Source of the DNA: a virus
Direction: 5' to 3' (one strand)
Virus record (IMG/VR): IMGVR_UViG_3300044716_000655
Span: 1-57,854 of that record
DNA: 57,854 bases
The position numbers and the translations under genes are program-made. Below are positions 14,234 through 31,553 of this stretch, piece by piece. Within the stretch, counting starts at the first letter, position 1; the number at the start of each line of letters is the position of its first letter. Below the pieces are notes generated by a model that saw only the letters and a list, made by a program, of their open reading frames with translations, was not told where the DNA came from and ran no database searches.

Positions 14234-15313
14234 ATGGGTTATTTAAAAAACATAGTCACTTATTTCTACAAAATATTATTCAGCTCAGAGATAAATGAAG
14301 CTGATAAATTTATTGATAAAGCTGCCATCATCTCTATAACTGATGAGCGTGGTAAGATAATCTATGTTAATGATAAGTTTGAGAAGGTTTCTGGGTGGAC
14401 ATTAGATGAGGTTAGAGGTAAAGATCATTCTATAGTCAATTCCGGGACGCAACCAGATGGCTATTGGGGTAAGATGTATGAGACTGTGTTGAAGGGTGAA
14501 GTGTGGAATGATATTGTATGTAATGTAACTAAAGAGGGTAAACATTATTGGGTAGACACTTATATTAGAGCCCGTTTTAATAAATGTGGAAAACTAAAAG
14601 GATTCTCATCTATTAGACAGGACGTCACTGCGCTTATGGAGCAGTCTGTTGAGTTAAATAGAAAGAATACATATCTAGAACACGCTGCTAAAATTCTTAG
14701 GCACGACATGCACTCAGGTATAAACACTTACATACCAAGAGGTATTAGTTCATTAGAAAGAAGACTCAAACCAGAAGATATTCAAAAGTTAAAAATAGAA
14801 GCTCCTCTTAAGATGATTAAAGAGGGGCTAACTCATGCTCAAAAAGTTTATAAAGGTGTTTATGAGTTTACCAATTTGGTTAAAAAAGATGTTGTGTTAG
14901 ATAAAGAGTTATATGATTTAAAACAAATATTAAACTCATATCTAGCATCAACTTCATATAAAAGTCAAGTAATAATCAAAGATTTATCTACTGTAGAAGT
15001 CAATGAAGCATTATTTTGTACAGCTGTAGATAACCTAATTCGCAATGGGTTAAAATACAACGACTCAGATACTAAAATAGTAACTATATTTATGGAGGAT
15101 GATTCTACTCTTGCTATTCAAGATAATGGTAGAGGAATAACTCAAGAAGATTTTAATTATTTATCTAGACCTTACACTCGTAAAGAAGGACAAAAAGAAG
15201 CAGGTACTGGTTTAGGTTTAAATATATGTGTTGCAATTTTAAAAGAGCATGGTTTTGATATTACATGTGAAAAAAATGAGGTTGGAACCAAAATGAAAAT
15301 TAAAATAAAATGA
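14234..15313 (+). CDS. PAS-domain sensor histidine kinase
   Basis: A 359-aa soluble kinase. Residues 30-135 are a PAS domain (SITDERGKIIYVNDKFEKVS, then GYWGKMYETVLKGEVW and the PAC-like end). A helical DHp segment holds LRHDMHSGINTY, where His157 is the likely phospho-acceptor. The ATPase domain shows the N box DNLIRNGLKYN, the G1 box DNGRG and the G2 box GTGLGLN. All catalytic boxes look intact. No membrane segment, so the signal should be cytoplasmic. The kinase half is nearly the same as that of the protein at 15939-17246. Function in the phage, perhaps lysis timing or host sensing, is inferred. Confidence 0.85.
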   Translation: MGYLKNIVTYFYKILFSSEINEADKFIDKAAIISITDERGKIIYVNDKFEKVSGWTLDEVRGKDHSIVNSGTQPDGYWGKMYETVLKGEVWNDIVCNVTKEGKHYWVDTYIRARFNKCGKLKGFSSIRQDVTALMEQSVELNRKNTYLEHAAKILRHDMHSGINTYIPRGISSLERRLKPEDIQKLKIEAPLKMIKEGLTHAQKVYKGVYEFTNLVKKDVVLDKELYDLKQILNSYLASTSYKSQVIIKDLSTVEVNEALFCTAVDNLIRNGLKYNDSDTKIVTIFMEDDSTLAIQDNGRGITQEDFNYLSRPYTRKEGQKEAGTGLGLNICVAILKEHGFDITCEKNEVGTKMKIKIK

Positions 15314-15942
15314 GAACACTATTACTATTAAGTTTCTTATTAATATCATCACTAGGATTTAGCCAAACTAAATACCCTATCCAAACTATATTCAGAGGTG
15401 ACTCAGTTGTTATTCTAACTATTAAACAATCTTTTGGTATTAATAAAGCAATTGAAACCCAAAAAAGAATTATCCGAGACCAGAATAAAAAAATACTCGC
15501 TCTAAATAAAACAATTGATAGTTTAAATAGGATAAATAATAGAGTTAATACTGTTATTGATAGTATACAATATATTGCAGACACAACATATAAGTGGGCT
15601 GACGAATTTAATATGGTTATCAGAGAACGAGCTATAGGTCCATGTTTACTTTATACCATACCTCCTTATAACAGTGTATTCTTTTTAGATTTAAGTCGTT
15701 ATAGAATGTATAGTACAGAATACGGTGAAAAAATTGAATTAGAATTAATGTCAGATAAACAATATGCCGAGTTTAAAAGACTACAAGATTTATATTTTGA
15801 TAGATACTACCCTACTTTAGATTATTATAAAGAGATTGGGTTTAAAGATTTTAATACTGAGATTGAATTATACGAGAAGGCAATTTGGAAGACTAAAAAT
15901 ATAATGAAGTTAATGATAAAACAAGAAGAAAAGAAAAAATGA
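15310..15942 (+). CDS. Exported protein inside the kinase cassette
   Basis: A 210-aa protein with a Sec signal peptide (RTLLLLSFLLISSLGFSQ). After it comes a helical coiled-coil region (residues 45-90, rich in N, K and I) and then a mixed C-terminal domain ending in EEKKK. No lipobox and no other membrane span. It overlaps the kinase genes on both sides by four bases, which suggests a periplasmic partner that feeds the transmembrane kinase behind it. No family recognised. Confidence 0.6.
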   Translation: MRTLLLLSFLLISSLGFSQTKYPIQTIFRGDSVVILTIKQSFGINKAIETQKRIIRDQNKKILALNKTIDSLNRINNRVNTVIDSIQYIADTTYKWADEFNMVIRERAIGPCLLYTIPPYNSVFFLDLSRYRMYSTEYGEKIELELMSDKQYAEFKRLQDLYFDRYYPTLDYYKEIGFKDFNTEIELYEKAIWKTKNIMKLMIKQEEKKK

Positions 15943-17246
15943 AAAAAATAATATCATTACTTATAGTCTTACTTGTATCTATAAATTTATACTCCCAAGA
16001 GATAAATTATAAAGACACTCTAGTAGATAACATAGAAACAACTTGGATTGATAGCGATACAGCGACATTGGCCGCTATGGGTATTCAAGAAATTGTTACT
16101 ACTTGGATTGAACCAGAACCAGAGCCAGAACCTGAACCTGTTGACATGACACAGTTATCAGAAACTGATTTAGTCAACATTGCTCAGGATGTACAATTCC
16201 TATCAGAATTGCCTAAGTCATATACTGATTTACCTAAAGAGGATTTAAAGAATGTTTTAGTTCAAATTGATAATAAACTTAATAAATTAACGGCTGAGCG
16301 AGATTCATTATTAGCACAAGCAACTAGAAATGATGAATTAATTAAATCAAAAGAAAATACAATTAACGCCTTAGGAAAAGAAAAGAACATCATTGGTTTA
16401 ACTTTAGAAACTGGTGATTTAATAGTTGAGAAAACAGATTTAGAAAAGCAAAGAGAAACATTAAAAAAATATCTCTATTGGGCTGTTGGTATAGTAATAT
16501 TATTTAGTTTAATACTTGCTGTTGTATTACAAAGAAAGAAAATACAAGTACAGGACGTAGAAATTGAAGAACAACTTAATGACATATCTAAAAAGAATAG
16601 TTACTTAGAACACGCTGCGAGAATTATCCGCCACGACATGCACTCAGGTATAAACACATACATGCCTAGAGGTATTAGTTCACTTGAAAAACGATTAACA
16701 CCTGAAGACATTCAAAAGTTAAAAATAGAAGGTGCTTTAAAAATGGTTAAAGAAGGTTTAAACCATACACAGCGAGTATATAAAAGTGTTTATGAATTTA
16801 CTAACTTAGTGAAATCAGATGTTGTATTGAATAAAACCAAAGTTAATCTAAAAGATTTGCTTCAAAACTACATTACCCCAAACTCATATAGCTCACAGGT
16901 TGAAATTAGTGACTTAGAAGAATTAGAAGTAAATGAAATTTTATTTTGCAATGCAGTTGAAAATTTAATTAAAAATGGATTATCATATAATGATAGCCAA
17001 GAAAAGAAAGTCAAAATATATATTGACAACGACAGTTTAGTAATCGAAGATAATGGTCGAGGATTTACACAAAAACAATTTGATAAACATTTAACAAAAT
17101 ACTCAAAGAAAACAAATGTTACAGGTGATGAAAATGGACTCGGTTTGAATATATGCGTTGCTATATTAGAGGAGCATGGTTTTAAATTAAGTTGTGAAGG
17201 AAACAATGTAGGAACTAAAATGAAAATTAAAATTAAAAATGACTGA
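15939..17246 (+). CDS. Transmembrane histidine kinase with periplasmic sensor
   Basis: A 435-aa kinase. Residues 1-20 are a signal/anchor, then an EPEPEPEPEP linker at 58-67, a long coiled coil (about 100-178), a transmembrane helix at about 180-198, and the kinase core. The DHp helix has RHDMHSGINTYMPRG with His232 as likely phospho-acceptor, and the ATPase boxes ENLIKNGLSYN, DNGRG and GLGLN are present. The core from SYLEHAARIIRHDMHS onward is closely similar to that of the soluble kinase at 14234, so one arose by duplication and sensor exchange. Coupled to the receiver gene by an eight-base overlap. Confidence 0.83.
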   Translation: MKKIISLLIVLLVSINLYSQEINYKDTLVDNIETTWIDSDTATLAAMGIQEIVTTWIEPEPEPEPEPVDMTQLSETDLVNIAQDVQFLSELPKSYTDLPKEDLKNVLVQIDNKLNKLTAERDSLLAQATRNDELIKSKENTINALGKEKNIIGLTLETGDLIVEKTDLEKQRETLKKYLYWAVGIVILFSLILAVVLQRKKIQVQDVEIEEQLNDISKKNSYLEHAARIIRHDMHSGINTYMPRGISSLEKRLTPEDIQKLKIEGALKMVKEGLNHTQRVYKSVYEFTNLVKSDVVLNKTKVNLKDLLQNYITPNSYSSQVEISDLEELEVNEILFCNAVENLIKNGLSYNDSQEKKVKIYIDNDSLVIEDNGRGFTQKQFDKHLTKYSKKTNVTGDENGLGLNICVAILEEHGFKLSCEGNNVGTKMKIKIKND

Positions 17247-18944: not shown

Positions 18945-19030
18945 GGCCGGGTGGTGAAACAGGTAGACACGCAGGACTTAAAATCCTGTTGCCCAAAAGA
19001 GCAGTGTGGGTTCGATTCCCACCCCGGCTA
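18945..19030 (+). tRNA. tRNA-Leu (UAA)
   Basis: An 86-nt class II tRNA. Acceptor GGCCGGG pairs with CCCGGCT (one G-U at the end), the discriminator is A, and CCA is not encoded. The D arm reads GTGAAACAGGTAGACAC and the anticodon arm GGACTTAAAATCC with anticodon TAA. A long variable arm follows, then T arm GTGGGTTCGATTCCCAC. All expected elements are present, so it should be functional and read UUA/UUG, codons common in this AT-rich genome. Confidence 0.92.
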
Positions 19031-19143: not shown

Positions 19144-19217
19144 GCGCCCTTAGCTCATTCGGTTAGAGCAACTGACTCATAATCAGTAGGTGCCTGGTTC
19201 GATCCCAGGAGGGCGCA
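19144..19217 (+). tRNA. tRNA with CAU anticodon (Met or Ile2)
   Basis: A 74-nt canonical tRNA. Acceptor GCGCCCT/AGGGCGC, D arm TAGCTCATTCGGTTAGAGC, anticodon arm ACTGACTCATAATCAGT with anticodon CAT, T arm CCTGGTTCGATCCCAGG, discriminator A, no encoded CCA. CAT could be elongator Met or, after lysidine modification, an Ile tRNA reading AUA. The sequence alone does not decide; the AT-rich codon use would favour need for AUA decoding. Confidence 0.92.
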
Positions 19218-20143: not shown

Positions 20144-20343
20144 CACCAAAAGAAAAAGCAGAACAATTAGTAAACAAAATGTTTAACTGGATTCAAGGCG
20201 GAAGCGTAATAGAATATGAAACAGCTAAAGAATGTGCCTTGATAGCAGTAGATGAGATATTAAAAGTAGCGTCATTTTACAATGATTCACAAGCCGAAGT
20301 AACTTATTGGCAAGAAGTTAAACAAGAAATAGAAAAATTATGA
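20140..20343 (+). CDS. Small helical protein, function unknown
   Basis: A 67-aa acidic helical protein (MTPKEKAEQLVNKMFNW). Both ends overlap its neighbours by four bases, so it is translated with the repair gene and the phosphoesterase. The pattern resembles the small EKEQI-type family at 26227 and elsewhere, but the family signature is absent. Confidence 0.5.
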   Translation: MTPKEKAEQLVNKMFNWIQGGSVIEYETAKECALIAVDEILKVASFYNDSQAEVTYWQEVKQEIEKL

Positions 20344-21071
20344 GCAAGACAATTATATTAGGAGACACACACGGTCGTAACATTTGGAAAGAGATCGTGT
20401 TTCAAGAAAAAGCAGATAGAGTTATTTTTATCGGAGACTACTTTGATAGCTTTGATATAGGCCCTGCTGAGCAAATGCATAATTTTCAAGAGATTATTGA
20501 CTTTAAAGAGAAGGGTGAGTGTGAAGTTATTTTATTAATTGGTAACCATGACTTTCATTACTACCCAGGCGGCGAGACATACTCAGGATATAAAGCAGGC
20601 GCAGCCCCAGCTATTAGACAGATGTTACAAGAAAATGATCACCATATGCAAATGTGTTATCAACTTGATAATATCTTATTCACACATGCTGGTATTGGTC
20701 ATGACTGGTTAGTGTATCAAAACCAATATGAACCATTTACAGATCAAGATACTGTAACCAACATAGCTGATTTTGTAAACGCAATTTGGAAATATCAACC
20801 TAATCGTTTTATGTTTTATGGAATTGATCCATACGGTGATAGTAAAACACAAACACCGATTTGGATACGCCCACAATCATTAATAGCGGGTAATCGAGGT
20901 ACATTCTTGAAAACAGATTATATCCAAGTAGTAGGTCATACTCATGTCGCTAAGATTGATATTGAGGGTAAATCGACAGGCGGTAGATATTATTTCATCG
21001 ATACATTTGACACCTCAGGTCAATTTTTAGTTTATGAAAATAAGGAGTTCAGATTAGGAGAATATCCTTAA
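20340..21071 (+). CDS. Calcineurin-like metallophosphoesterase
   Basis: A 243-aa enzyme with every metal-binding motif of the family: GDTHGR (residues 8-13), GDYFDS (32-37), GNHDFHYY (62-69) and GHTHV near residue 199. These coordinate a two-metal site that hydrolyses phosphomonoesters, diesters or nucleotides. It lacks a signal peptide. In this region it sits close to a P-loop kinase and an RNA ligase, so an RNA 2',3'-cyclic end or ribonucleotide substrate is conceivable, but host (p)ppNpp-like or protein substrates are equally possible. Confidence 0.8.
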   Translation: MSKTIILGDTHGRNIWKEIVFQEKADRVIFIGDYFDSFDIGPAEQMHNFQEIIDFKEKGECEVILLIGNHDFHYYPGGETYSGYKAGAAPAIRQMLQENDHHMQMCYQLDNILFTHAGIGHDWLVYQNQYEPFTDQDTVTNIADFVNAIWKYQPNRFMFYGIDPYGDSKTQTPIWIRPQSLIAGNRGTFLKTDYIQVVGHTHVAKIDIEGKSTGGRYYFIDTFDTSGQFLVYENKEFRLGEYP

Positions 21072-21079
21072 CTTTTTAT

Positions 21080-21119
21080 CCTAGGCTTTTAAATTAAATT
21101 TATTATCTTTATAGTATAA
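21080..21119 (+). promoter_or_regulatory. Promoter, CCTAGG / TATCTTTATAG
   Basis: CCTAGGCTTTTAAATTAAA then TTATCTTTATAGTATAA; drives the small membrane gene at 21129 and the run that follows. Confidence 0.8.
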
Positions 21120-21128
21120 GAAAAAATT

Positions 21129-21248
21129 ATGAAAAATAAAATAAATGGTAACGCGGTTGATCTAATAGTAGGAATAGCTGCTGTATTTGGAGTAATGACA
21201 ATATTATTCTCTGCTGTTGGGATGATTATTAAATTAACATTTGGTTAA
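21129..21248 (+). CDS. Single-helix membrane peptide
   Basis: A 39-aa protein made almost entirely of one transmembrane helix (residues 9-35, DLIVGIAAVFGVMTILFSAV). First gene behind its own promoter. It may be an envelope-acting peptide; no family recognised. Confidence 0.5.
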   Translation: MKNKINGNAVDLIVGIAAVFGVMTILFSAVGMIIKLTFG

Positions 21249-21249
21249 T

Positions 21250-21855
21250 ATGGTTGATAATTTTGAGAAAATACGCTACAGGTTGAAATTTGAGGATGAT
21301 TATTTTTATTTCATCCAGATTATACAGCGGAGTAAAGAAAATCCTGAATTAGGTTCAAACAATAGAATTATTCGTTCTTATAATATTGATTCATTAGAAA
21401 AGTTTGATAAAAATAAGGATGAAATAACAATACTGTGTGATACATTTAATGCTCGAGCTTATATTCATTTGAATAGAAGAAAGTGGAGTAAGGTTGCACT
21501 TGAATGCTTAAGACATAATGCCGAATTAATTGCTAATAACCAACACAGTGGTATTAAGTCAAGTTTTGAGACTGTAATTGGACGTAACAATGGTGAATCA
21601 AGTGAAACTAAGACATGGATCATTGATATTGATATGAATGATTTAGAGGTTGTAAATAAAATTGAACGTATCATTAATAGTGTAGAACCTATAGATAGAA
21701 CTGTAACTAAATTAATGTATGTTCTTCCTACCAAGAATGGGTTTCATATGATCACTAAACCATTCAATAGAGCTGAATTTACTAAGTATATGCAGTTGCA
21801 AGGTGATACACCTGATATTCATACTGATAACCCAACAATATTATACGCAATATGA
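21250..21855 (+). CDS. AEP-primase-like protein
   Basis: A 201-aa protein. A TTG start at 21241 is possible but the ATG at 21250 directly follows the previous stop and is preferred. WIIDIDMND at about residues 121-129 supplies a DxD pair, and TKNGFHMITKPF near 166-177 supplies the following G-x-H block. This is the order of motifs I and II in archaeo-eukaryotic primase and PrimPol-like domains. The N-terminal 100 residues are unassigned. The match is by motif only; it may be an inactive or RNA-repair-linked relative. ATGA overlap with the kinase gene. Confidence 0.45.
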   Translation: MVDNFEKIRYRLKFEDDYFYFIQIIQRSKENPELGSNNRIIRSYNIDSLEKFDKNKDEITILCDTFNARAYIHLNRRKWSKVALECLRHNAELIANNQHSGIKSSFETVIGRNNGESSETKTWIIDIDMNDLEVVNKIERIINSVEPIDRTVTKLMYVLPTKNGFHMITKPFNRAEFTKYMQLQGDTPDIHTDNPTILYAI

Positions 21856-22250
21856 AAACATTAATATTATTAAGAGGATTACCTGGATCGGGTAAATCAA
21901 CATTAGCTAAAATGTTAGTCGGGGATAAAGATTACCGACACAAAGAGGCTGATATGTTTTTCGTCGACGGTGAGGGTAATTACAAGTTTGAACCATCAAA
22001 AATCAAAGATGCTCATGCTTGGTGTCAAGAGGAGGTTGATTTCCTAATGAGATATGAGCATTCGCCAGTGGTAGTGTCAAACACATTCACACAAGAGTGG
22101 GAGATGGATGCTTATTTTGAATTAGCTGAGAAGTATGATTACCAAACATCTTGCCTTATAGTAGAAAATAGACACGGTGGAGTAAATGAACATGGTGTAC
22201 CCGCAGACAAATTAGAACAAATGAAAAATCGTTTTGAAATAAAATTATAA
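21852..22250 (+). CDS. P-loop kinase (PNKP/N4BP2-like)
   Basis: A 132-aa P-loop protein. Walker A is RGLPGSGKST (residues 8-17). EADMFFVD follows, as in AAA_33/zeta-toxin-like kinases, and VVVSNTFTQEWEMDAYFELA near the middle matches the NTN/NTF motif of N4BP2-like and polynucleotide 5'-kinase domains. Such enzymes phosphorylate nucleic-acid 5' ends or small molecules. Being 260 bases upstream of an RNA ligase supports an end-healing role; substrate not proven. Confidence 0.7.
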   Translation: MKTLILLRGLPGSGKSTLAKMLVGDKDYRHKEADMFFVDGEGNYKFEPSKIKDAHAWCQEEVDFLMRYEHSPVVVSNTFTQEWEMDAYFELAEKYDYQTSCLIVENRHGGVNEHGVPADKLEQMKNRFEIKL

Positions 22251-22264
22251 AAATAACAAACAAA

Positions 22265-22513
22265 ATGAAAATTACAGTAATCCACAACCCAGATGAAGAA
22301 AATTGGGGACAATATGCAGGAGTTGAAACAATTTTAACTACTAATGAAGGCACAGAATCAGTCAACTTTGCTGGAGGTGAACCTGAAGACATGAGTATTG
22401 CTAGAGATTTGAGTGATGCCTGGAGCATTAAAGAATTATTAGTTAGAGCATATAATGCAGGTAAGAATGGCGAAACATTAGAAATCGAAGAAATAACAGA
22501 AGACGACGAATAA
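22265..22513 (+). CDS. Small acidic protein between kinase and RNA ligase
   Basis: An 82-aa acidic protein with a strongly negative C-terminus (EIEEITEDDE). It lies between the kinase and the RNA ligase with its stop touching the ligase start, so it is part of the same unit. It may be an accessory factor; no family recognised. Confidence 0.5.
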   Translation: MKITVIHNPDEENWGQYAGVETILTTNEGTESVNFAGGEPEDMSIARDLSDAWSIKELLVRAYNAGKNGETLEIEEITEDDE

Positions 22514-23677
22514 ATGGAAAACAATAATTCAGTGTGCTATGTAGCACGTATAAACGAAATCAACCCAATCCCAGGAGCAGATAATATCGAACAAGGTGTT
22601 ATCGGAGGATGGAATTGTATTATCAAGAAAGGAGAATACAAAGTAGATGACTTAGTTGTAGTAGCAACCACAGACGCAGTTATTCCTGTAGAGCTATCAG
22701 ATGCAATGAACGTAACCAATTACTTACGTAAGGGTCAACGTGTGCGTACTGTTAAGTTAAGAGGTGTTTACAGTGAGTGTTTGATTATACCTTTAAGATA
22801 CGCTCGTCAATCTGCTAAATACACTAAATTGGAGTGGAATGAAGGTAAGGATGTAATGGAATTGTTAGGTATCTTCAAGTATGAACCACCAGTACGCCAA
22901 GTACAAGTGGCAGGGGGTCGTAAGATTAAATATAAAGACAACCCTAATTTCCAGGTTTATTATAAATTCCCCAACATAAAAAATGTGAATGGAATGTTTA
23001 ATGAAGAAGATTATGTACAAATTACTCGTAAGATACATGGTACAAATGCTCGTTATGGTATTGTTAAGAAACATAAGTTATCATTTTGGGATAAGTGTAA
23101 AAAATTCTTACGATTAGCTGATGAGTGGATTGAGTATGAATATGTTTATGGTTCACATAACGTTGAGAAAGGTTCTGATACACAAGGTTTCTACTCAACT
23201 GATGTTTGGAGAGAGGTAGCTGATAAGTATCAAATCAAAGATAAGTTGTGGGCGTTTGTTAAGAATCACACACCAACTGAAGTTGGAACTGGAGTAATAG
23301 TATATGGTGAGATATACGGACCTGGTATTCAAAAGAACTATGACTACGGATTGAAGGAGTTAGAGTTTGCTGGTTTTGATGTTGTATGGAATGGTAAATA
23401 TTTTTGTGGTGAATTAACTCATCTTACAATGATTGGTAAGCATAATGACTTTATCGACGGTGTTGATTTGCCTCACGTACCTATTTTATATGTTGGACTT
23501 TGGTCTCAAGAGATTCAAGATAAGTTCACATTCAACAACTTTATTGAAGGAACTAAAGTACCACATGAAGGTATTGTAATCAAACACACAAGTGGACAAA
23601 GAGAAAAAGTAGCTAAAGTAATTAACCCAGACTATCTCATCTATGGAGAGAAACATGATGTAGGAGATTCACACTAA
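22514..23677 (+). CDS. RNA ligase (Rnl5/DraRnl-like)
   Basis: A 387-aa ligase. Residues 1-100 form an N-terminal OB-like domain (INPIPGADNIEQGVIGGW). The nucleotidyltransferase motif I is KIHGTN, with Lys173 as the AMP-binding lysine. Motif III-like VYGEIYGPGIQ, motif IV EGIVIKHTSG and motif V KVINPDYL follow in order. This architecture with an N-terminal OB fold is that of the Deinococcus DraRnl/Rnl5 group, which seals 3'-OH/5'-P nicks in RNA strands. It probably repairs tRNA or other RNA cut by host nucleases. All catalytic blocks look intact. Confidence 0.85.
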   Translation: MENNNSVCYVARINEINPIPGADNIEQGVIGGWNCIIKKGEYKVDDLVVVATTDAVIPVELSDAMNVTNYLRKGQRVRTVKLRGVYSECLIIPLRYARQSAKYTKLEWNEGKDVMELLGIFKYEPPVRQVQVAGGRKIKYKDNPNFQVYYKFPNIKNVNGMFNEEDYVQITRKIHGTNARYGIVKKHKLSFWDKCKKFLRLADEWIEYEYVYGSHNVEKGSDTQGFYSTDVWREVADKYQIKDKLWAFVKNHTPTEVGTGVIVYGEIYGPGIQKNYDYGLKELEFAGFDVVWNGKYFCGELTHLTMIGKHNDFIDGVDLPHVPILYVGLWSQEIQDKFTFNNFIEGTKVPHEGIVIKHTSGQREKVAKVINPDYLIYGEKHDVGDSH

Positions 23678-23687
23678 GACTTTTTAT

Positions 23688-23725
23688 CCTAGGCTTTTAA
23701 ATAAGATTTATTATCTTTATAGTAT
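23688..23725 (+). promoter_or_regulatory. Promoter, CCTAGG / TATCTTTATAG, giving a nearly leaderless gene
   Basis: CCTAGGCTTTTAAATAAG then TATCTTTATAGTATG. The ATG of the next gene (23724) replaces the ATAA part of the core, so transcription should begin at or very near the start codon. Confidence 0.75.
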
Positions 23726-24374
23726 GAAAATAGAATTAAAACCCCACCAAGGATTATGGTTTACAAGTGATACTCACTACAACCATGCTAACATATGTCG
23801 AGCGACTACAAGATGGACTGATGCAGATGCTGTGACTCGTGACTTTAGTTCATTAGAGAAAATGAATGAGACATTAGTATCTAACATTAACAAATATGTT
23901 CAACAAGATGATATCCTGATTCATTTAGGTGATTGGTCATTTGGTGGTTTTGAGAGTATTAAAGAGTTTAGAGATAGGATTGTATGCCAAAACATACATT
24001 TAGTACTCGGAAACCATGATCATCATATTTCAAACAACAGAGACGATATCCAATCTATATTCAGTTCAGTAAATCAATACTTAGATTTAGATGTTAGATG
24101 GTGGGTTGCTGGTAAGATAAAAGAACACGCTCGTTTCATCTGTATGCATTATCCTATAGCGAGTTGGAATGGAATGAATGATGGGGCAGTTCACTTACAT
24201 GGACACGTTCATTTACCTAAACATTTAAGAATGGCAGCTGGCAAGGCAATGGATGTAGGAGTAGATGGAAATGATTTGGAGCCAATTGAAATGGATGATA
24301 TATTAATTAAAATGGTATCTAGACCAATCGATAAATTAACATTACCAAAAGATCATCACGTTAAAAGAATATAA
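23724..24374 (+). CDS. Calcineurin-like phosphoesterase
   Basis: A 216-aa enzyme with SDTHYNHANICR (residues 15-26), HLGDWSFGG near 72, VLGNHDHH near 98 and HLHGHVH near 158, a full two-metal site. This type is widespread in phages and resembles bacterial YfcE/ MJ0936-type phosphodiesterases. It is placed directly after the RNA ligase but on its own promoter. It could remove 2'-phosphate or cyclic-phosphate ends, or act on nucleotides; substrate unknown. Confidence 0.8.
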   Translation: MKIELKPHQGLWFTSDTHYNHANICRATTRWTDADAVTRDFSSLEKMNETLVSNINKYVQQDDILIHLGDWSFGGFESIKEFRDRIVCQNIHLVLGNHDHHISNNRDDIQSIFSSVNQYLDLDVRWWVAGKIKEHARFICMHYPIASWNGMNDGAVHLHGHVHLPKHLRMAAGKAMDVGVDGNDLEPIEMDDILIKMVSRPIDKLTLPKDHHVKRI

Positions 24375-30113: not shown

Positions 30114-30320
30114 ATGAAAAAAGCATTAAAAATAATTTTAGCATTTATTGTAATAAATGTAATCATGGGTATTGGTGTTTGGGGAGTAATTACTAACGAA
30201 AGTGATACAGAACCAGGATGGCAAGTATGGGGATGGTTTTTAGCAGTACTTACAATTGCATGGCCAGCTATTAGTTTTTGGTGGGATAGAATGCTTTGGT
30301 TATTAGATTTAGAAGATTAA
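30114..30320 (+). CDS. Small membrane protein, two helices
   Basis: A 68-aa protein with two transmembrane helices (about residues 4-25 and 39-58) rich in tryptophan. Last coding gene before a 990-base RNA region. Function unknown. Confidence 0.5.
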   Translation: MKKALKIILAFIVINVIMGIGVWGVITNESDTEPGWQVWGWFLAVLTIAWPAISFWWDRMLWLLDLED

Positions 30321-30329
30321 AATAATTAG

Positions 30330-30345
30330 CCCCGCTCGCGAGGGG
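30330..30345 (+). terminator. Hairpin at the start of the RNA region
   Basis: CCCC (30330-30333) and GGGG (30342-30345) around GCTCGCGA, itself partly palindromic. There is no T-run, so it may pause or separate transcripts rather than end them. Confidence 0.35.
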
Positions 30346-30444
30346 ATCGTAAAACACAGTAAGCCTCTGACACAAGCTCAAGTAACTGTTCTCATCGTAT
30401 AGGAGATAGAGTTAGCCTACTCGACGTCGTTTAAAAAGGCAGCA
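30346..30444 (+). ncRNA. Unassigned structured spacer at the head of the RNA array
   Basis: Non-coding. It includes CTCAAGTA at 30377-30384, a motif that recurs at 30810 and 31102, and TCTC-ATCGTATA-GGAGA near 30390, which forms a small hairpin. No known RNA family recognised; it probably belongs to the same transcript as the four tRNA-like elements. Confidence 0.35.
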
Positions 30445-30511
30445 AGTCAGGTAACTTAATTGGCAAAGCTCCTAACAAGGAAGATTGCGGGTTCGAATCC
30501 CGCCCTGACTA
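30445..30511 (+). ncRNA. tRNA-like element 1, shrunken anticodon arm
   Basis: AGTCAGG (30445-30451) pairs with CCTGACT (30504-30510), discriminator A. The T arm is GCGGGTTCGAATCCCGC and the D arm ACTTAATTGGCAAAGC, all normal. Between them the anticodon arm is reduced to TCCT-AACA-AGGA, four pairs and a four-base loop, so no standard anticodon can be displayed. Length 67 nt. It may be a processing signal, a decoy or a degenerate tRNA. Confidence 0.6.
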
Positions 30512-30776
30512 CGATGAGTGAGAGATCCTCAGGCAGATTGGCTACATTCTGTAAAAAAAGTAGTGGTAGTAAAAAGCCCCCGACCTTAATGGGGAATCGA
30601 TTCGGGTTAAAGTGAAGCATATCCGCAGCTCCGACGTATAGGATTGACAGGTTTTTATGTGGTAAGACACTAATGAAAAAGACCGACTGAGCGAAAGGCA
30701 GAAGGGGATATGGTTCTCGAAATAGTTAGAGAAACCCGTTAAAATCTACTCACTGAGATCTCAGGTGGGGCAATAT
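30512..30776 (+). ncRNA. Structured non-coding spacer between tRNA-like elements 1 and 2
   Basis: A 265-base stretch with no ORF of note. GGTTCTC/GAGAAACC forms a hairpin near 30712-30737, CACTGA-GATC-TCAGGTG another near 30751-30767, and GAATCGATTC is a 10-base palindrome near 30595. CGTATAGGA recurs here (near 30637) as in the head spacer. Not recognised as an intron, tmRNA or RNase P RNA. Confidence 0.35.
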
Positions 30777-30939
30777 AGTCAGGTGGCGGAATTGGTAGAC
30801 GCTATCGTACTCAAGTAAGGCAAAGCAATGTAGATGAAACGTCGTCACATGGTGAGTTAACACCTAAAAGTCTTTGGACTTGAAATCCAAAAAACCTTGA
30901 GTATGTTCTACAATACAGGTTCGAATCCTGTCCTGACTA
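30777..30939 (+). ncRNA. tRNA-like element 2, 163 nt, with insert and Ser(UGA)-like arm
   Basis: Acceptor AGTCAGG/CCTGACT, D arm GTGGCGGAATTGGTAGACGC of class II type, and T arm ACAGGTTCGAATCCTGT are normal. Between D arm and T arm lie about 110 bases. Within them CGTACTCAAG (30806-30815) pairs with CTTGAGTATG (30896-30905) over ten bases with one G-U. Inside that helix TTTGGA-CTTGAAA-TCCAAA (30873-30891) is a perfect anticodon-type arm with anticodon TGA. Either a tRNA-Ser with an inserted 70-base segment, or a larger tRNA-scaffolded RNA. ACTCAAG also resembles a Leu(CAA) loop. Confidence 0.6.
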
Positions 30940-31017
30940 CGCACCTACAATTGGGTAGGAAGTTGGCCGCCAACCAACAAGGGACAAAGGCTGACACCTC
31001 GGAAAGACGAGGAACAT
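30940..31017 (+). ncRNA. Three-hairpin RNA between tRNA-like elements 2 and 3
   Basis: Three perfect 5-bp hairpins in a row: CCTAC/GTAGG (30944-30959), GTTGG/CCAAC (30962-30974) and CCTCG/CGAGG (30997-31012, loop GAAAGA). The order and regularity suggest a folded RNA released between two tRNA-like elements. No known family recognised. Confidence 0.45.
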
Positions 31018-31087
31018 AGACAGGTAGTTTAATTGGTAAAATGTTCTCATACTGAGAAGAATACAGGTTCGAATCCTGTCCTGACTA
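31018..31087 (+). ncRNA. tRNA-like element 3, five-base anticodon loop
   Basis: Acceptor AGACAGG/CCTGACT with an A-A mismatch at the third pair, D arm GTTTAATTGGTAAAAT, T arm the same as in element 2. The anticodon stem TTCTC/GAGAA closes a loop of only ATACT. Read with a four-pair stem the loop would be CATACTG, which lacks the universal U33. It is therefore tRNA-shaped but unlikely to decode. Length 70 nt. Confidence 0.6.
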
Positions 31088-31189
31088 CAAAAACACATTA
31101 ACTCAAGTACCCATACTGAGGACGATGGGCTAAGTAAGATACAATTCCGTCATGCAGGGAGTAGAATGCTTGAGAATGTGTTTAAATAT
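31088..31189 (+). ncRNA. RNA closed by a 15-bp helix, between tRNA-like elements 3 and 4
   Basis: AAACACATT (31091-31099) pairs with AATGTGTTT (31175-31183), and after a two-base bulge CTCAAG (31102-31107) pairs with CTTGAG (31169-31174). Inside, CCCAT (31110-31114) pairs with ATGGG (31125-31129). The long closing helix makes an independent folded RNA likely. Function unknown. Confidence 0.5.
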
Positions 31190-31294
31190 AGTCAGGTGAT
31201 TTTTGGAAAACGCAGCACCTTCCAGGGTTGAGACTAACAGCTAATGGCACTCAGAATGATAAAGCTGAAGCAGGTTCGATTCCTGTCCTGACTA
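31190..31294 (+). ncRNA. tRNA-like element 4, 105 nt, with non-canonical centre
   Basis: Acceptor AGTCAGG/CCTGACT, discriminator A, T arm GCAGGTTCGATTCCTGT. A D-arm-like TGATTTTTGGAAAACGC follows the acceptor. The roughly 55 bases where the anticodon arm should be contain no 7-base loop on a 5-bp stem; TGAG/CTCA and CTTCCAG/CTGAAG pairings are possible. It resembles element 2 in plan but not in the insert sequence. Confidence 0.55.
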
Positions 31295-31310: not shown

Positions 31311-31553
31311 ATGGCAAAAGTAACAATTGAATTTGACCGTGATGAAGAAGCAAATGAGCTCCGCACCACACTAGATGGGAATAAGTATAAACATCTTATC
31401 TGGGAACTAGACCAAAAACTACGTAGTGTACATAAGTACGGAGCCGCTCTTGAAGGTGGTGGTGAAGCAACTGAAGCTGAAATGGAGGTATGTTATAAAT
31501 TAAGAGACATTATTAGAGAAATGTTATTAAATGATAATTTAACAATAGAATAA
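31311..31553 (+). CDS. Protein of unknown function after the RNA array
   Basis: An 80-aa acidic protein, KVTIEFDRDEEANELRTTL at the start and helical after. First coding gene behind the RNA array, 17 bases from element 4, with no separate promoter of the main type, so it may be co-transcribed with the RNAs. No family recognised. Confidence 0.5.
   Translation: MAKVTIEFDRDEEANELRTTLDGNKYKHLIWELDQKLRSVHKYGAALEGGGEATEAEMEVCYKLRDIIREMLLNDNLTIE

Follow-up and report, generated by a model that had tools for sequence, protein, structure and literature searches.

tRNA-shaped elements with variable centers in place of the anticodon arm: a large candidate family of phage RNAs

The viral sequence analyzed here, IMGVR_UViG_3300044716_000655 (57,854 nt in full; referred to below as the window), contains a 990-base gap without any listed gene, running from the end of one open reading frame (ORF) at position 30320 to the start of the next at 31311 and holding four tRNA-shaped elements. 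The parts of this island are given below together with the neighboring ORF and two ordinary tRNAs of the same sequence; the leucine set named there comprises A73, A15-U48, G18G19, and A20a.

18945..19030, plus strand: ordinary tRNA-Leu(TAA), for comparison.
19144..19217, plus strand: ordinary tRNA-Met(CAT), for comparison.
30325..30441, plus strand: module X, a conserved noncoding RNA 5' of element 1, without a tRNA shell.
30445..30511, plus strand: tRNA-chassis element 1, 67 nt, with an AGTCAGG/CCTGACT acceptor, a D arm, and A73.
30512..30772, plus strand: module Y, a long noncoding RNA immediately 3' of element 1.
30777..30939, plus strand: tRNA-chassis element 2, 163 nt, with a full leucine-type shell and the leucine set.
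30940..31014, plus strand: module V, a short RNA with three predicted hairpins.
31018..31087, plus strand: tRNA-chassis element 3, 70 nt, with a D arm, a T arm, A73, and the leucine set.
31089..31189, plus strand: module Z, a conserved noncoding RNA with a 14-bp closing stem.
31190..31294, plus strand: tRNA-chassis element 4, 105 nt, with a center of class A, CACCTTCCAGGGTTGAGACTAACAGCTAATGGCACTCAGAATGATAAAGC.
31311..31553, plus strand: ORF of 80 amino acids without assigned function, context beside the island and outside the RNA.

The four elements have in common the AGTCAGG/CCTGACT acceptor, the T arm, and a discriminator A followed by C. Their 20-nt T-loop/acceptor end, TTCGANTCCTGTCCTGACTA, matches the window four times at up to three mismatches, always within an element, and was matched 0 times in 100 dinucleotide shuffles of the window, so that the four elements described in an earlier note on this DNA are indeed present. 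The single acceptor mismatch that the note had mentioned lies in element 3 (AGACAGG). The shortened loops it described are confirmed: where the anticodon arm is expected, element 1 carries the mini-hairpin UCCU-AACA-AGGA (4-bp stem, 4-nt loop), and direct reading of element 3 gives a stem of 5 bp and the 5-nt loop ATACT. D-arm-like segments, which had been assigned to all four, are found in elements 1 to 3, but the D arm of element 4 is degenerate. Element 1 also has a GCGGG/CCCGC T arm and the leucine set (A15, G18G19, A20a, and U48). The insert of element 2 is closed, on our reading of the sequence, by TACTCAAG (30808-30815) and CTTGAGTA (30896-30903), and TGTAGA (30829-30834) can pair outside the insert with TCTACA (30907-30912) in a possible pseudoknot; the whole element folds with a z score of -3.35 and has a relative in L210 (L numbers denote fetched loci). 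Elements 1, 3, and 4 have no 7-nt anticodon loop with U33, and element 2 has one only inside its insert, where a single 5-bp/7-nt stem-loop resembling an anticodon arm (TTGGA-CTTGAAA-TCCAA) sits deep in the insert, away from the anticodon position, and is absent from the L210 relative.

Standard tRNA detection handled these elements unevenly. The Rfam tRNA model (cutoff, 29 bits) scored element 1 at 43.4 bits and element 3 at 49.8 bits; of element 2 it aligned only the 3' half, partially and at a below-cutoff 25.1 bits, and it did not detect element 4. ARAGORN called only element 3 in the island, as a tRNA-Val(TAC) with A at the U33 position, whereas better pairing gives the 5-nt loop. The two ordinary tRNAs reported at 19 kb were recovered by ARAGORN and Rfam as tRNA-Leu(TAA) and tRNA-Met(CAT). 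Elsewhere in the window, two genes with histidine-kinase ATPase domains (14234-15313 and 15939-17246), one with a PAS domain, are unusual for a phage, and an RNA ligase (22514-23677) lies between two calcineurin-like phosphoesterases (20340-24374), a combination that might serve tRNA repair.

Comparison of loci indicates that the gaps between the elements (X, Y, V, and Z) are also conserved RNAs. Module X is 85 to 98% identical in L187 to L189, L212, L118, and L121, and a diverged copy bearing extra hairpin-like inserts occurs in L211 and L123. Module Y has a relative with 81% identity across 261 nt in L126 and weaker relatives in L012, L024, L063, and elsewhere, the match often starting immediately 3' of a tRNA or chassis element. 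Neither X nor Y has an Rfam match. The segment 30944-31017, corresponding to module V, folds with a z score of -4.18, 0 of 200 shuffles being as stable, and shows partial similarity to sequence 3' of chassis elements in L213/L011 and L223/L035. Module Z, for which no matching Rfam family was found, recurs in related form in 12 fetched loci (among them L121, L187, L211, L003, L012, L071, and L058), of which some nearly duplicate each other, and has a near-invariant core, TACAATT / GGGAGTAGAATGC. Across eight sequences of module Z, 99.1% of pair cells are standard, both sides have changed in 10 of the 14 pairs, and the covariation score exceeds that of all 500 shuffles. The variants in L012 and L071 hold GCGGTGAGTAACGGG, which by eye resembles a segment of 16S rRNA. 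The order of parts is X-Z-class A in L187 and L123 and X-class A in L118, and in the window elements 1 to 3 plus Y and V are inserted between X and Z; modules have been gained and lost.

The search of related phages for the same array that the earlier note had suggested was run and uncovered a family of hundreds. A scan of viral contigs for the exact 20-mer from T loop to A73 found it in at least 120 stretches, single loci among the matches listed holding as many as six copies; in 17 whole records, a nearly identical pattern had at least one match in 17 of 17 and a reversed control pattern had 0. Loci from the 20-mer, loci reached through a neighboring DUF932 gene, and nine GTDB contigs together gave a catalogue of 235 distinct elements in about 130 loci, 54 to 222 nt long (median, 103 nt). 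These elements avoid coding sequence, as only 25 of 216 (12%) overlap an ORF compared to 73% of random intervals. Because fixed acceptor/T-arm or 5' sequences served as the seeds, the conservation of the shell in this catalogue is partly a product of selection; this bias was checked in loci selected by the 5' end and by DUF932. When the 5' end alone (acceptor and D arm) served as the pattern in a second search, 91 of 104 new matches had a complementary acceptor and a T arm on their 3' side, with all 7 pairs formed in 81; these 91 elements are 74 to 247 nt long, with exactly CCTGACT in 68 and C74 in 86. Loci chosen by DUF932 only held 201 tRNA-like structures, of which 172 had a canonical anticodon arm, their acceptors differing widely; among the 29 without the arm, 13 had an AGTCAGG or AGTTAGG acceptor and 8 had GGTCAAG. 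Ordinary tRNAs from all loci used 334 different acceptors in 551 sequences. These counts argue that the link between the acceptor and the missing anticodon is not an artifact of the search.

Outside the center, the elements behave as tRNAs. The features found include the 7-bp acceptor, D and T arms, U8-A14, 15-48, G18G19, and the T loop. The T stem is fully paired in 227 of 235 elements despite 23 sequence versions, the D stem can close in 197, and U8-A14 is present in 199; the pattern indicates that both stems are maintained via compensating changes. The tertiary pair 15-48, A-U in 174 elements and with C48 in 7 of the 10 that have G15, covaries between A-U and G-C (P = 1.6e-6; P = 5e-6 with one element per center cluster), statistics that include related sequences and are inflated by them. 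A canonical 5-bp/7-nt arm with U33, sought anywhere in the center, occurred in 10 of 235 elements compared to 8.75 expected from shuffles (7 of 91 compared to 2.9 expected in the 5'-selected sample). By this measure the anticodon arm is lost from the elements, canonical arms occurring at about the chance rate.

The flanks point in the same direction. Element leaders have U at -1 in 193 of 234 cases, A at -2 in 170, and A at -4 in 167, and C74 follows in 231 of 235; ordinary tRNAs of the same loci have U-1 in 381 of 540, A-2 in 339, A-4 in 354, and C74 in 536, so that elements and ordinary tRNAs of the same contigs have the same leader and trailer base preferences. Element 1, with A at -1, is an exception to the leader preference. 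The ordinary phage tRNAs in the fetched loci encode a full CCA in 48 of 540 cases, as against C74 in nearly all. Bacterial RNase P is reported to favor U-1, with a further preference for A-2 in Bacillus subtilis, and to contact the leader through its protein from -4 (PMC4919922). Processing of the elements by RNase P, one of three uses proposed in the earlier note, is supported indirectly, in that the leader and trailer signature fits. The covariation of the shell, the near-chance frequency of anticodon arms, and the tRNA-type flanks lend strong support to the note's broader proposal that tRNA shape is under selection in the absence of decoding.

The elements retain the outer two-thirds of a tRNA, with leucine identity features in about half of them. 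Leucine identity in Escherichia coli includes A73, A15-U48, G18G19, and A20a, and E. coli tRNA-Leu can be charged even after removal of both its anticodon and variable arms (PMC9976931). A15, A20a, and U48 occur together in 117 of 235 elements, 57 of 57 ordinary tRNA-Leu, and 38 of 485 other tRNAs. In the window the leucine set is present in elements 1 to 3 and absent from element 4, and about half of all shells lack the full set. For elements that have it, charging by the host leucyl-tRNA synthetase (LeuRS) and binding of EF-Tu are plausible.

The centers are far more varied than the shell. Clustering of 263 centers gave 203 clusters, 170 of them singletons; with both samples, 323 centers gave 242 clusters, and 57 of the 91 new centers matched nothing in the first set, which indicates that the repertoire is far from exhausted. 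The predicted structure of the centers taken alone is only slightly better than that of shuffles (mean z score, -0.40). Most centers are singletons, and certain elements have extra hairpins in the D loop instead of the center. Recurring centers form conserved classes. The GGTCAAG class, found about 190 nt downstream of the DUF932 gene (L142, L150, L160, L162, L167, L169, L190, and L196), has 34 pairs including a pseudoknot, with pairing in 97.8% of cells, both partners altered in 10 pairs, and covariation above that of all 500 shuffles; the loop at the anticodon position is predicted to be engaged in the pseudoknot. Class A, the center of element 4, also occurs in L004, L011, L046, L118, L123, and L187 and is nearly identical in L187, although the flanking proteins there are 70 to 83% identical. 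It lies 15 to 16 nt upstream of the 80-amino-acid ORF, itself 68 to 75% identical in relatives, in L118 and L187 to L189 and near it in L123; in L004, L011, and L046, its surroundings are unrelated sequence, which argues for action in trans. A separate class of 156 to 176 nt with G73, varied acceptors, and the conserved inner motif GGGTTGACCAC was noted at L013:7997, L059:585 (minus-strand coordinates), and L104:836 and also in L042.

The conservation and covariation of the shell, the lost anticodon arm, the tRNA-type flanks, the payload classes, and the gain and loss of modules are all evident in these sequences. We think it probable, with some reserve, that the elements are tRNA-chassis RNAs of the phage which are matured by host pathways, perhaps leucylated, and display variable payload RNAs. 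Of the three uses proposed in the earlier note, that of carriers of other RNAs is the best fit, the recurring centers being conserved RNA classes. Under this proposal, RNase P of the host would cut the 5' end at the acceptor, and host tRNA maturation would trim and CCA-tail the 3' end as it does for ordinary tRNAs of the phage. A normal tRNA elbow would form from the acceptor, D, and T arms, and the payload, ranging from a 12-nt mini-hairpin to structured and sometimes pseudoknotted domains of at least 100 nt, would take the place of the anticodon branch. The chassis would supply stability and defined ends, and in about half of the elements its leucine set may allow charging by LeuRS and binding of EF-Tu. 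The payload would be the functional part, most likely binding a molecule of the host or of a rival phage, and would be swapped as a cassette among phages. Here we infer transcription, cleavage, charging, and payload activity. A more specific version, in which large Bacteroidota phages use one constant, leucine-charged, nondecoding chassis to display hundreds of swappable payloads against host defenses or rival phages, with the tRNA pathway of the host and EF-Tu providing stability, we consider possible but less likely than not. Searches for payload function found no antisense targets in the element's own contig or the window beyond those of shuffles, no rRNA complementarity or mimicry with E. 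coli rRNA as the reference, and no peptide coding, element ORFs being no longer than those in shuffles. The Bacteroidota-type promoter motif showed no excess over chance and none occurred in the island, and nothing convincing among PADLOC defense families was found beside the array.

Several other explanations were weighed. The elements may be decoys whose tRNA-like ends absorb, during infection, host enzymes that attack or modify the tRNA acceptor or elbow, such as CCA-targeting toxins, the centers merely diversifying the decoys. The retention of a full elbow, acceptor, and A73 without decoding would suit such a role, and an arms race could account for the variation within arrays. However, the recurring centers show conservation through compensating changes, together with a pseudoknot, for which a passive decoy has no need, and the missing anticodon loop argues against anticodon nucleases as the targets; we regard this explanation as unlikely. 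Somewhat less likely still is that the elements serve as cut sites at which RNase P and 3' processing would free X, Y, V, and Z. Conserved RNAs do occupy the gaps, with Y often immediately 3' of a tRNA-shaped end, and the elements carry a processing signature, but X and Z adjoin without an intervening element in L187 and L123, and a cut site alone would not require conserved and diverse centers. The position of element 4, 16 nt before the 80-amino-acid ORF with the spacing kept in L187 and L118, could instead suggest tRNA-like leaders that, like mimicry operators, lie in the 5' region of the gene that follows and act on it in cis; this seems improbable, because class A precedes unrelated sequence in L004, L011, and L046 and elements 1 to 3 are followed by noncoding RNA. 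The many unique centers (170 of 203 clusters) would be expected of functionless debris from tRNA duplication, which is already disfavored by shell covariation, intact processing flanks, and conserved center classes and which we consider very improbable. Least credible are split or intron-bearing tRNAs that decode once the insert is removed, as the anticodon-arm-like stem-loop in element 2 might suggest, since such arms are about as frequent as chance predicts, Rfam found no intron family in the window or ten element-rich loci, and elements 1 and 3 are too short for an intron.

The tRNA-chassis reading has its closest parallel in the laboratory tRNA scaffold, a layout used to make stable RNA (PMC3753655). 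In both, the acceptor, D, and T arms are kept, foreign RNA replaces the anticodon arm, and the tRNA pathway processes and stabilizes the product (in the elements, by proposal); the scaffold is engineered, whereas the phage elements are natural and bear hundreds of inserts. A natural array of the scaffold type appears to be undescribed. tmRNA likewise combines a tRNA-like domain lacking an anticodon with an inserted payload and is charged independently of an anticodon. In contrast, the elements have no reading-frame signal, a leucine-type rather than alanine-type shell, and many payloads, and neither the window nor ten element-rich loci matched the tmRNA covariance models of Rfam. By eye, the 5' portion of element 4 resembled the tRNA-like domain of a tmRNA, an idea dropped because no tmRNA model matched and there is no tag frame. 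YrlA, a bacterial Y RNA, is also a noncoding RNA with a tRNA-mimicking part, but in its Rfam model the T-arm-like part precedes the D-arm-like part, and membership was rejected at 17.8 bits against a cutoff of 69.

Viral tRNA mimicry is also known from plant-virus tRNA-like structures, which end RNA genomes, and from the TMER RNAs of gammaherpesviruses, which join a tRNA-like part to microRNA hairpins; the elements, unlike either, reside in a DNA phage and carry their inserts within the tRNA shape. Stable RNAs C and D of phage T4, small RNAs of unknown function in its tRNA cluster, are similar to the elements by description only. One of the plant-virus forms lacks an anticodon (PMC9976931). 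Soil metatranscriptomes have yielded polycistrons of allo-tRNA-like and irregular tRNAs (Mukai et al. 2017, according to PMC7609411), similar runs of odd tRNAs whose use is unknown, the irregular ones being set against the elements by description only. As described there, allo-tRNAs are 8/4 or 9/3 and serine type and have an anticodon, whereas the elements are leucine type with the arm replaced; allo-tRNA membership was rejected, the stems being 7/5 throughout. For GOLLD and other described large RNAs, Rfam searches of the window and ten element-rich loci gave tRNA only. Against 50,697 phage records, the whole island had no blastn match. A short T-arm query returned mostly ordinary tRNA fragments, none close to this acceptor, and other element classes and module Z gave no informative match among phages. 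No description of the array was found in Rfam, the phage database, or the literature searched, most subscription journals lying outside the latter. With hundreds of unrelated inserts borne by a single constant shell, we regard the system as new; a stricter reader may see a variant of tRNA-mimicking RNAs.

The carriers are large freshwater phages, probably of Bacteroidota. Matches in GTDB are mostly to Bacteroidota metagenome-assembled genomes, which may represent phage contigs binned with their hosts; host rRNA was sought in these genomes, and none was found. By DUF932, the nearest cultured relative is Flavobacterium phage immuto (MW353175, L225), at 44% identity. In this phage, whose host is Flavobacterium sp. 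LMO8, an 84-nt element (20246-20331; 20247-20330 in L225) is annotated as tRNA-Cys. ARAGORN does not call it, no ordinary anticodon arm is visible by eye, and an element in L091 has a matching acceptor and T arm; we treat the immuto element as a cousin and not as a member with the same shell because it lacks the AGTCAGG acceptor. Just as tRNA finders miss elements 2 and 4 and misname element 3 as an ordinary tRNA, the "tRNA-Cys" of immuto is probably also a chassis-like element misnamed as an ordinary tRNA. If expressed, the elements would constitute a large undescribed class of phage RNA, and phages would themselves have evolved the RNA-stabilizing scaffold used in laboratories. The catalogue would then offer hundreds of natural RNA payloads for target searches, and the question of why phages carry nondecoding tRNA-like RNAs becomes testable.
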